Assembly (NCBI GenBank): GCA_028818695.1
Contig: JAPPNK010000012.1
Location: forward strand, 1 to 64,000
Origin: Candidatus Poribacteria bacterium
GTDB taxonomy: Bacteria; Poribacteria; WGA-4E; GCA-2687025
DNA length: 64,000 nt
Reading direction: 5' to 3'
Shown: piece after piece, positions 229 through 4,896 of the stretch
How the letters are laid out: every line of letters starts with the position of its first letter
How positions within the stretch are numbered: the stretch's first letter is position 1
Program-made: the position numbers and the translations under genes
The notes under the pieces: model-generated
Told to the model about the DNA's origin: nothing
What the model saw: the letters and a program-made list of their open reading frames with translations, nothing else
Databases searched by the model: none

Positions 229-1671
229 TTAATAATACGCCGCCTGAATCGCCTCAATCCGCTTCCATGCGCCGTCCAGCGCCTCCGCATTGCCGACGTA
301 TCGAAAATAAAAGTTCAAGACGCGGCTCACATACCGCTCCGTTTCGGGCCGCAGCGGTATGTCGGAGGCGACGCGCCCCGGCCCGGCGTTGTATGCGGCG
401 ATCGCCAGGGCGTAGTTCCAATCTTTCCGTTGAAGCAGATGCGCAAAATACCGAATCCCGGCGTCCGCGTTCACCATCGGATCGAAACGCGGATCGCGCT
501 GGCGGTCCAATAAGACAGATTCAGGCAGCTGAATCCCCATATCGCGCGCCGCCCCAGGCATCAGCTGAAACAATCCAACCGCCCCTGACTTGGAGATCGC
601 GTTTGGATCAAAGCTGGACTCGGCATGGATAATCCCAAGCAGAAGCTCCGGCTCAATCCCGTACTTCCGCGAATGGCTTTCAATCAACGCGCGCAGCGAA
701 TGACGCGCCTCCTTCGGTATGTCTAGCTTCGGGTCCACCGCTGAAGGGATGAGCCGCTTCGGCGGTTCGGCTCCCTCCGGCACAACGATGATCATAGGTC
801 TGGGCGGAGGCGGAGGCGGAACGGCTGGCGGAATCGTTCCTTCCAGCGGAATGGAGATCGACAGCGAATGGTCTCCTTGCCCCGGCGTTTGACTTTCGAA
901 GTCGTAGGCGTAATGGACGGCGGCGCCCTGCGGCATATTTGCGGAGACGCCCGCCGAGAGGCGCGAGTCGCCGCGCCAGCCCGCCCGCGCCGAAAACATC
1001 CGCCAATCCGTTTCCATCCCAAAAGCGACCGTTCCGCGCGACATCTCAAAGAGAACACGCAGATCGTCCGCCGGACGAATGAGCGCCCCGTAGCGCCAGT
1101 TCCACGACTCCCCGCGGCGAATGTCCGCGCCTATCCGCGCCCATCCGTCAGGATCCATCCAGATCGTCTGGGCGCCGAACTGCACATAAGGCGACGGCGC
1201 CAAGAGCGCGCCGAGGCTGAAACCTGTATAATACGCGCCGTCGCTCAAACGCCACCGGTCGACGGTCATCCCGCCCTGCGCGTTTCCTAAGGAATAGGCG
1301 TAACCCAGTGAGGCGCGGTACTTTCCAATCCGCAGCGGAGCCAGAGGCACAGCCTGTCCCTCAACCTCGTCCAAATTCACAACCCCAAAGCTGACGGCTC
1401 CCCCGTCCGAGACGGGAAGCGCCGCCGCAAGAGAGCCTTGCGTCGCGTCTAAAAGAAAACCGGCTTTTTCGGCGTCCGCGATGAGCGCAGGATTGCCGAA
1501 CAGACTCGCTGGGTCGCCGCGCAGCGTCGTCGTGATAGAGCCGGCGCCGCGCGATCTAGCCCCTACAGCCGTATATTCTGAATCGTCGGCGGCCGCTAAC
1601 GTAAAACCGATCCAAGCGGCGGCGACGAAGCACCCAACCAACATCGTATAGCAAATCACGCGGCGGAACAC
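229..1671 (-). CDS. Outer-membrane barrel-like protein fused to lytic transglycosylase (SLT) domain
   Basis: 480 residues. A GTG start is used, preceded by GGAGAG; an in-frame stop lies just upstream, so no longer form is possible. Residues 1-27 form a signal peptide. Residues about 34-270 resemble PorV/UPF0164-type barrels: 'GARSRGAGS...DPASLFGNPAL' near the N terminus, then alternating beta-strand patterns. A proline-rich linker (PPPPPP, about 280-300) leads to a goose-lysozyme-like SLT domain at about 325-465. Its catalytic Glu sits in 'HAESSF', followed by 'GAVGLFQLMP' and 'AIAAYNAGPG'. Family knowledge: SLT domains cleave the MurNAc-GlcNAc bond of murein. It is last in a minus-strand run after a pentapeptide gene and a 34-codon ORF. 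The SLT assignment is firm; the barrel assignment is by pattern only. Confidence 0.85.
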   Translation of the reverse strand: MFRRVICYTMLVGCFVAAAWIGFTLAAADDSEYTAVGARSRGAGSITTTLRGDPASLFGNPALIADAEKAGFLLDATQGSLAAALPVSDGGAVSFGVVNLDEVEGQAVPLAPLRIGKYRASLGYAYSLGNAQGGMTVDRWRLSDGAYYTGFSLGALLAPSPYVQFGAQTIWMDPDGWARIGADIRRGESWNWRYGALIRPADDLRVLFEMSRGTVAFGMETDWRMFSARAGWRGDSRLSAGVSANMPQGAAVHYAYDFESQTPGQGDHSLSISIPLEGTIPPAVPPPPPPRPMIIVVPEGAEPPKRLIPSAVDPKLDIPKEARHSLRALIESHSRKYGIEPELLLGIIHAESSFDPNAISKSGAVGLFQLMPGAARDMGIQLPESVLLDRQRDPRFDPMVNADAGIRYFAHLLQRKDWNYALAIAAYNAGPGRVASDIPLRPETERYVSRVLNFYFRYVGNAEALDGAWKRIEAIQAAYY

Positions 1672-1833: not shown

Positions 1834-2205
1834 TTACTCCAACTTCCATTCGGAACGGACGACTGCCGCCTTTGCCGACTGGGCGTCTATGCCGCTTGGC
1901 AGCTGGGTGAACTCGTCGCAGAAAGCGCCCTCCGTCAAGGCGCCTTCCATTGCCGCGCTCTCCAGATTCGCCTCTTGAAGATTCGCATGCCGCAGATCCG
2001 CGTTCGACAGGTCCGCCCCGTTCAAACGCGCTCCAAACAGATTGGCTCCAGAAAGATTTGCCCCGGCGAAATTCGCCCCCCGCAGATCCGCATGGCGCAT
2101 GTCCGCAAAACGCAGATCAACGCCGTCCGCCGCCGCATTTTGCATGCGCGCAAAACGCAGAACTGCCCAAGGCTGCAGTTTCGGTTGAGATGAAGACTTT
2201 TTCAT
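1834..2205 (-). CDS. Pentapeptide-repeat protein
   Basis: 123 residues. From about residue 28 to 95 it has a run of A(D/N)Lxx pentapeptides (VDLRFADMRHADLRGANFAG, then NLSGANLFGARLNGADLSNADLRHANLQEANL), which fold as a right-handed quadrilateral beta helix. There is no signal peptide, so it is probably cytosolic. The C-terminal 28 residues (TEGAFCDEFTQLP...) are not repetitive. It starts 9 nt after the prfB stop and is probably cotranscribed with lnt-prfB. Some pentapeptide proteins protect DNA gyrase, but nothing here shows that role; the specific function is unknown. Confidence 0.8.
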   Translation of the reverse strand: MKKSSSQPKLQPWAVLRFARMQNAAADGVDLRFADMRHADLRGANFAGANLSGANLFGARLNGADLSNADLRHANLQEANLESAAMEGALTEGAFCDEFTQLPSGIDAQSAKAAVVRSEWKLE

Positions 2206-2214
2206 AGAAAGAGC

Positions 2215-3319
2215 CTAAACTCCGGCAGCCGACTGCTTTAAATACGACTCGATGAACATGTCCAAGCCGCCGTCCATCACGGCGTTCAGATTGCCCGTCT
2301 CCGCGTTCGTGCGGTGATCCTTCACCATGCGGTAGGGATGAAACACATAGGAGCGTATCTGATTGCCGAACGCGATCTCGCTTTTTTCGCCATGCTGCTT
2401 CGCCAGCTCGGCGTCCTGTTCCGCCTGATAATGCGCAAACAGGCGCGATTTGAGAACGCGCAGCGCCGTCGCCCTGTTCTTATGCTGCGAACGTTCATTC
2501 CTGCATACAACAAAAATGCCGGTCGGAAGATGCGTCATCCGCACCGCCGAGTCGGTCATGTTTGCGTGCTGGCCGCCCGGGCCGCCGGATCGGAACGTGT
2601 CGATGCGCAGCTCGTTCTCGGCGATTTCAACCTCAATGGAGTCGTCCAGGTCGGGCGTAACATAAACCGCCGCAAAGGAGGTGTGCCGGCGCCCGCTGGA
2701 ATCGAACGGGGAGATGCGCACCAGACGATGGATGCCCGATTCGGAGCGCAGATAGCCGTAGGCGGAGGGACCTTTCACGGAGATCGTCGCGCCCTTGATG
2801 CCCGCTTGGTCGCCCGGCTGGCTGTCCAGCGCCTCCGCCTCGTAGCCGCGCGCGTCGCACCAGCGCAGATACATTCGAAACAGCATAGACGCCCAGTCCT
2901 GCGACTCGGTGCCGCCGGCGCCTGGGTTGATTGTGAGGATGGCGTCCCTGTCGTCGTGGTCGCCTTGGAGCATCATGGCGAGCTCCTGCTTCTCAACCTT
3001 CTGCGTCAAGGCTGGCAGCTGCGCCGTCAGTTCCGCCTCGATTTCGGCGTCGCTCTCCTCTTCCGCCATGAGCGCAAAATCGAGCGCGTCCGCAACCTCG
3101 CCGTTCAGCGACGTCCATGCCTCAACCGGCTTGCGCAGCTGCGCCAGACGCCTCTGCGACTTTTGAGCCGCTTCGCGGTCTGTCCAAAAATCGGCGCGTT
3201 CCGACCGCTCCTCTATCTCTGCAATCTCACTCTCTGCCGCGTCCATGTTAAAGACCGTCTCGCAACTCTAGAACTCGCTCCTTCAAGGCTTTCAATTTTG
3301 CGGCGACTTCGCTTGCCAT
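2215..3319 (-). CDS. prfB: Peptide chain release factor 2, programmed +1 frameshift
   Basis: RF2 recognises UGA/UAA and triggers peptide release. The gene lies in two frames. ATG at 3319 (AGGAG 9 nt upstream) opens 23 codons ending ...ELRDGL and then TAA at 3250-3248; the remaining 343 codons are in the +1 frame from AAC at 3249. Skipping one base at CTT-T-AAC joins them into a 367-residue protein (E. coli RF2 is 365), and the join aligns with the E. coli join LRGYL-D. The RF2 discriminator SPF ('RISPFDSSGRRHTSF') and the catalytic 'GGPGGQ' are present. The start overlaps the 3' end of lnt by 28 nt. The upstream Shine-Dalgarno-like stimulator is weak (GAGACGG). Confidence 0.93.
3247..3253 (-). 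promoter_or_regulatory. prfB: prfB recoding site CUU-UAA-C
   Basis: On the minus strand the sequence reads CTT TAA C. Peptidyl-tRNA-Leu can slip from CUU to UUU, after which AAC is read in the +1 frame. In most bacteria the slot holds UGA, giving RF2-specific feedback; here it is UAA, which both RF1 and RF2 read. Confidence 0.85.
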
Positions 3320-4896
3320 TTTTCGCGCTCCTCTCTGCGTCCGCGTATAATCATAACCGCAATGAGAGCCAACGAAGCGAATATTGACAAAAAAGAGACC
3401 CAATTTCCCCATCGCACATACAATGTTTGGTCGGTACGAGTCGATACTTCTGCCGCGATGACGCCGTTTCGGTCCGACGCCTCCACCCGATCGCCGACAA
3501 TCCGCCCATACGGATCGATAAAGCATGTAACGCCGCGATTCGCCGCCCGCACAAGCCACCGCCGAGTCTCAATTGCCCGAAAAACGGAGCAGACATTGTG
3601 CTGAGGAATCGCCGGCGTTCCGTCGTACCAGCCGTCGTTCGTCAGAACAATCAGAAGGTCGGCGCCGTTGCGGACAAATTCGCGGCTGATTTCTGAAAAC
3701 ACCGACTCGAAACAGATCGGAACGCCCGCTTTCGTTCCGGCGATCTCCAGCAGATTTGCCTGTTCCCCGAAGGCGTAATCGCCGATTCCGATCACCTTCT
3801 CCACGATAAAGCCGGGCAGAAGGCTGCGCAGCGGGATATACTCTCCGAACGGAACAAGATGCTGCTTGTTGTAAAACTGACGCGGTCCTTCCTCATGGTC
3901 GACCGCGACAGCGGAGTTAAAATAGGAGAGCGTGTCGGGATCGCGGCGCGGCGCGCCGTAGAGCAGATCGACGCCGTGCGTCTTTGGAAACTGCTCAAAC
4001 CGCTCCCGCTGCGCGTCATCCAGAGCAGGCAGCAGAACGGATGTCTCCGGCAGAACGACCGCGTCCGGCTTCAACTGCGCCGCCTTCTCCATCCGCTCCA
4101 TATAATGTTCAAAGTTTTCCTTTAGAGCGTTTCTCCGCCAGCGTTCATCCTGGGGGATATTCCCTGGGACGACAGCGAAGCGTACGGCGTTGTCTGTCGG
4201 CTGTTTTTGGTTGAGCGCCGCCGCGCCGTATAGAAACGCGAACGCGCACAACGCCAGCGCCGGCGACGACCATGCCAGCCCGCGCGTCCATTTGGGACGC
4301 TCCATGACGATAAGCGCAACCGCCGCGTTCACATACATTAAAACAAAACTGATGAGCGGCTCCCCGCCGAGTGACGCCAACTGCGCAACCGGCAAGCAAT
4401 TCCATTGCGACGCGCCCAGAGTCGCCCACGGAAAGCCTGTCAACATCCAGCTGCGCAGCCACTCGCATAATGCCCAGAAGCAGGCGGCGGCGGGCGGATA
4501 TAAGTAACGGCTTCGCGGCGCCGCCTTTACAAGAAGGACGCCGAACAACCCGACATACAGCCCAAGATACGCCGCCAGCAGGGCAGCCCCAAACGCGCCG
4601 ACGATCCACCCGAAGCGCGGCCCGACAGCCGAATACATCCCCACCTTGTAAAGCCAGCCGACGACGCCTAAAAACGCAACGAAACCGCCCAGCCATCCAT
4701 ACCAGAATCCGCGCCGCCAAGTTTCCGCCCGGCGCAGCGCCAACAGCAGCGGAACCGCCGCAAACCAGCCCGCCCAGCAAAGGCTCCAGTTCGAATGAAT
4801 CGCCGTAAACCAGTTCGGATGAATCGCCGTATAAAGCAGCGCAAAGCCCGCCAACAGCGCATACGGACGCCAGCGCTTCGGTATCTTGTCTGTCAA
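3292..4896 (-). CDS. lnt: Apolipoprotein N-acyltransferase
   Basis: 534 residues. It transfers an acyl chain from phospholipid to the N-terminal Cys of apolipoproteins at the inner membrane. The N-terminal ~220 residues form several hydrophobic segments, and the C-terminal nitrilase-like domain carries the Glu-Lys-Cys triad: Glu in 'VLPETSVLL', Lys in 'YNKQHLVPFGEYIP', Cys in 'GVPICFESVFSE'. A final membrane segment (FLSIFASLALIAVMII) ends the protein. The start is TTG, since no nearby ATG is in frame. Residues about 23-37 contain a recent 24-bp tandem duplication (TAIHPNW/TAIHSNW). Several lipoproteins in the window are plausible substrates. Confidence 0.93.
   Translation of the reverse strand: MTDKIPKRWRPYALLAGFALLYTAIHPNWFTAIHSNWSLCWAGWFAAVPLLLALRRAETWRRGFWYGWLGGFVAFLGVVGWLYKVGMYSAVGPRFGWIVGAFGAALLAAYLGLYVGLFGVLLVKAAPRSRYLYPPAAACFWALCEWLRSWMLTGFPWATLGASQWNCLPVAQLASLGGEPLISFVLMYVNAAVALIVMERPKWTRGLAWSSPALALCAFAFLYGAAALNQKQPTDNAVRFAVVPGNIPQDERWRRNALKENFEHYMERMEKAAQLKPDAVVLPETSVLLPALDDAQRERFEQFPKTHGVDLLYGAPRRDPDTLSYFNSAVAVDHEEGPRQFYNKQHLVPFGEYIPLRSLLPGFIVEKVIGIGDYAFGEQANLLEIAGTKAGVPICFESVFSEISREFVRNGADLLIVLTNDGWYDGTPAIPQHNVCSVFRAIETRRWLVRAANRGVTCFIDPYGRIVGDRVEASDRNGVIAAEVSTRTDQTLYVRWGNWVSFLSIFASLALIAVMIIRGRREEREKWQAKSPQN

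Follow-up and report, generated by a model that had tools for sequence, protein, structure and literature searches.

The textbook example of autoregulation through frameshifting is the prfB gene; the way in which its frameshift sites are lost is debated. An internal Shine-Dalgarno (SD)-like element, usual but not invariant at these sites, acts as a stimulator. In the programmed +1 ribosomal frameshift of the CUU UGA C type, a short ORF1 leads to a CUUU slip site and an early stop followed by C, beyond which the rest of RF2 is encoded in the +1 frame. In P. fluorescens, RF2 was barely detectable once the internal SD had been disrupted, and disruption combined with a change of the slip codon yielded no transformants (PMC13245932). 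According to the article text of Prince et al. 2025, 8,164 of 12,753 prfB genes carry the early stop, which in these motif-bearing genomes is TGA in 98.6% and TAA in 1.4%, with no TAG, the TAA cases being dispersed over phyla. The same text argues that TAA sites stay under RF2 control and that in most taxa UAA may be read mainly by RF2 (PMC12421855). UAA shift sites are a rare but catalogued variant, and the kind is not new. Another described arrangement is the termination-reinitiation gene pair: reinitiation at +1 to +2 nt is known in archaea and E. coli, the examples being a native pair at +1 from H. volcanii and +2 constructs that in E. coli retained 30 to 95% of the native level (PMC10666635).

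Anatomy of the split prfB gene

The locus described here lies in a 64,000-nt stretch of DNA (the window; positions 1 to 64,000 of contig JAPPNK010000012.1, from a Candidatus Poribacteria bacterium). Its features are as follows, with the basis of each in parentheses.

3328 to 3335, minus strand: Shine-Dalgarno GAGAGGAG of prfB ORF1 (sequence; predicted pairing to the anti-SD of this genome)
3248 to 3319, minus strand: prfB ORF1, 23 sense codons plus the UAA stop (sequence; start position in the class; amino-acid conservation)
3257 to 3261, minus strand: remnant GAGAC of the internal SD-like element, which reads GAGGU in relatives G004 and G005 (pairing energy)
3247 to 3253, minus strand: shift site CUU-UAA-C (sequence; comparison with relatives)
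3244 to 3246, minus strand: in-frame AUG one base past UAA, a possible reinitiation start (sequence)
2215 to 3249, minus strand: prfB ORF2, the RF2 body in the +1 frame (frame; TIGR00020 score)

The gene is thus carried on the minus strand in two frames, ORF1 and then the RF2 body in the +1 frame, and a split prfB with a UAA site is confirmed as real. ORF1 (product, MASEVAAKLKALKERVLELRDGL) runs for 23 codons from the ATG at 3319, the order from 5' to 3' being ATG(3319-3317)...TTG CGA GAC GGT CTT(3253-3251) TAA(3250-3248) C(3247) ATG(3246-3244) GAC. Beginning with the +1 codon AAC (3249-3247), the body stays open down to the stop at 2215; ATG 3246 is its sole in-frame start close to the junction, because a TAG closes the frame upstream. 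A +1 shift on CUU-U would give 23 + 1 + 343 = 367 residues, and coordinates and frames agree with the initial annotation, which had proposed a split at CUU-UAA-C and a product of this length.

The RF2 body scored 490.9 bits against the TIGR00020 prfB model (cut-off, 370) and carries the SPF and GGQ motifs. In common with the CUU UGA C type, the locus has a gene interrupted by an early stop and continued by the body in the +1 frame, a CUUU slip site, a C directly following the stop, and a stop that RF2 can read (UGA, rarely UAA, and never UAG in the article text of PMC12421855). It differs from that type in that UAA replaces UGA and the SD-like element is nearly lost. In most of the class members listed, the start likewise lies 23 codons ahead of the stop. 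The site is more than chance, since the stop position, the CUUU, the following C, and the start 23 codons upstream all fit the class motif. As predicted from the sequence, the tryptic peptide spanning the ORF1-ORF2 junction would be DGLNMDAAESEIAEIEER, and a body begun at the AUG would have MDAAESEIAEIEER as its N-terminal peptide.

UAA at the shift site is private to the lineage

A total of 99 prfB shift sites were read (that of the window, 50 from its class, and 48 from other groups, whose genomes were located by a protein scan). The stop was UGA in 98 and UAA in the window only. The 50 class-member orthologues showed the same architecture with UGA, and CUU UGA C was present in every relative with a readable site, including three genomes of the same family (CUG CGA GGU CAU CUU UGA C in G004 and G005; CUG CGA GAG CAU CUU UGA C in G002). 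Conservation of UAA across the lineage, a check proposed in the initial annotation, is ruled out by these readable relatives. When a fixed-spacing pattern was run over 84 genomes of the phylum, CTTTAAC was found in the window alone and UAA at the shift site of no other genome, while CTTTGAC was found in 61 of the 84, at least one of which may be a chance match (e.g., G062). In the phyla to which G085 and G084 belong (398 genomes each), the UAA pattern gave 12 matches, none beside an RF2 gene; with a pattern uncalibrated for these phyla, the survey yields no UAA frequency. Two occurrences of TTT TAA (L077 and L085) were judged to be false matches and excluded from the counts.

On these sequence comparisons, which reach down to family level, UAA is private to this lineage. 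The rarity of UAA sites, stated in the initial annotation, is borne out by the single case in 99 sites and by the 1.4% of 8,164 given in the article text (PMC12421855). The locus shares with the CTTTAA minority of Prince et al. 2025 both the slip site with UAA and a scattered occurrence, unfixed in clades; for that set, the article text holds no description of SD strength or of an AUG behind the stop (PMC12421855). That UAA is catalogued, that it is unconserved in the lineage, and that an in-frame AUG directly follows it were all absent from the initial annotation.

Shine-Dalgarno elements

The weak upstream SD (GAGACGG) noted earlier was evident from pairing energies. The 11 bases that precede the slip codon paired with the anti-SD core at −3.0 kcal/mol in the window, compared to a median of −10.2 kcal/mol over the 99 sites. 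The GAGAC remnant, 3 nt before the slip codon, was thus the weakest of the 99, tied with G002. Of random 11-mers from the window, 27% paired as well, which counts against frameshifting, as a weak internal SD lowers the expected shift rate. A weak SD alone does not exclude membership in the family, since G002 is equally weak and keeps UGA. No stimulatory RNA structure was found just downstream of the shift site (z 0.28).

For its part, the SD of ORF1 (GAGAGGAG, 3335-3328) showed a predicted −12.7 kcal/mol with the genome's own anti-SD, ranking third in strength among 51 ORF1 starts of the class. That this strong start offsets weak shifting is only a suggestion, because G004 and G005 have comparable SD energies and TTG starts. 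The anti-SD core is normal in the genome's own 16S, which ends GGCTGGACTACCTCCTTTCT.

Beside that core, the 3' end of this 16S (L133) reads GGACTACCTCC in place of the GGATCACCTCC usual in bacteria.

ORF1 is conserved as a protein

Conservation was analyzed in codons 10 to 20, which lie outside the overlap with the upstream lnt gene. Compared with G005, 7 of 11 residues were kept despite 15 base changes, 6 codons being synonymous (neutral mean 3.3, P about 0.002); the corresponding P values were 0.015 for G004 and 0.016 for G002. Over codons 1 to 20, a stretch partly shared with lnt, 11 of 20 residues were kept compared with G005 (P 0.00015). Codons 12, 18, and 19 were identical in G002, G004, and G005 and synonymously different in the window. 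Under this test, a simple substitution model that spans the whole divergence from the relatives and not just the time since UAA arose, ORF1 showed conservation as a protein.

A possible start 25 to 28 codons upstream of the AUG-equivalent position was present in 31 of 31 frameshift-free RF2 genes inspected (predicted starts). This suggests that the N-terminal segment is generally needed and that an RF2 lacking it is disfavoured.

Proposed mechanism

We consider it likely that programmed +1 frameshifting still works at this prfB locus, where the UGA of the shift site has turned into UAA. The ribosome would translate the 23-codon ORF1 and pause at UAA with tRNA-Leu on CUU; a fraction of ribosomes would slip from CUU to UUU and continue to the 367-residue RF2, and, with termination competing with slipping, the RF2 level would still feed back. 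Here RF1 would also terminate at UAA, and the helper SD is almost gone. We infer that slipping occurs, as well as its rate and the share taken by RF1.

Since RF1 can terminate at UAA and the helper SD is nearly gone, both the basal rate of shifting and the gain specific to RF2 are probably below the usual, and the feedback would probably be weaker, less RF2-specific, and shared with RF1. The proposal that feedback runs through both factors follows from the ability of both to read UAA. RF2 feedback may largely persist, with RF2 maybe the main UAA reader (article text of PMC12421855).

The retained CUUU, the following C, the stop position, and the length of ORF1 favour frameshifting, which is the better explanation because ORF1 is conserved as a protein and all of the inspected frameshift-free RF2 genes can encode the same N-terminal segment. 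Against it, UAA combined with an absent SD may yield too little RF2 without help, given that SD disruption in P. fluorescens nearly abolishes RF2 (PMC13245932), and the AUG right behind UAA provides an alternative route.

The lineage has lost UGA and the internal SD, the two features most favouring RF2-specific feedback, and has kept the split gene. It is a natural test case for the minimal requirements of a shift site and for a possible takeover by reinitiation. Taken alone, it is one more UAA site, and the adjacent AUG is its standout feature.

Alternative explanations

Alternatively, the frameshift may have decayed, with much of the RF2 made by reinitiation at the AUG after UAA, as 343 residues without the N-terminal segment. 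The UAACAUG geometry, in which the start codon lies one base from the stop, is that of termination-reinitiation pairs (PMC10666635), except that the second frame here is the rest of one conserved protein and not a separate gene. Among the 99 sites, ATG at the codon after the shift site was found in the window only. Class members mostly have Leu, Val, or Ile at this codon, for which Met is a mild substitution, so the AUG may be chance; the SD in front of it is also poor, 35% of random 17-mers being as good. The decayed SD and UAA each lower the expected shifting, and initiation at ORF1 is strong. Stop usage was TGA 49%, TAA 30%, and TAG 21% in a crude longest-ORF set (265 ORFs of >200 amino acids, from 464 kb of the genome with 59.6% GC). 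The frameshift motif tends to be lost where TGA usage is high (article text of PMC12421855), a link that is not significant once ancestry is corrected for (P 0.0576; PMC13245932). With ORF1 conserved as a protein and none of the sampled frameshift-free RF2 genes lacking the N-terminal segment, we regard this explanation as unlikely. If it were true, RF2 supply would rise with termination at UAA, which would abolish or even reverse the negative feedback. A switch caught in mid-conversion from frameshifting to reinitiation, in which RF2 supply rises with release-factor activity and the textbook feedback is reversed, is quite improbable.

An error in the consensus or assembly, the true base giving UGA and a near-ordinary site, could be suspected in a genome of 35 contigs and about 91% completeness whose UAA was seen in no other species among the sites read. 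It is very improbable, as the adjoining SD, the spacer codon, and the next codon also differ from those of the relatives with the frames intact, so that one wrong base is insufficient, and UAA stands at the same place in about 1.4% of motif genomes (article text of PMC12421855).

The genome's single RF2 match above the cut-off is this prfB body, and no second RF2 gene was found in this genome (∼91% complete). RF1 is present (C26:4608-5618) and has the RF1-type motif PET instead of SPF. Decay or inactivity of prfB, to which lineage-private changes at a site nearly invariant elsewhere might point, is very improbable for a full-length body of 490.9 bits with intact motifs, the sole RF2 gene found, where about half of the sampled stops are UGA and require RF2.

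In 4 of 58 relatives (G001, G003, G007, and G023; two of them >90% complete), all prfB matches were below the cut-off, and RF2 may be missing from these assemblies.

Gene neighbourhood

The lnt gene (apolipoprotein N-acyltransferase) occupies 3292-4896 on the minus strand, and ORF1 of prfB starts within its last 28 nt; lnt is also upstream of prfB at most class loci with enough sequence. Directly downstream of prfB lies a gene for a small pentapeptide-repeat protein (1834-2205, minus strand). The protein encoded at 229-1671 (minus strand) showed a weak PorV/PorQ-like match in its N-terminal part and a lytic transglycosylase match in its C-terminal part.
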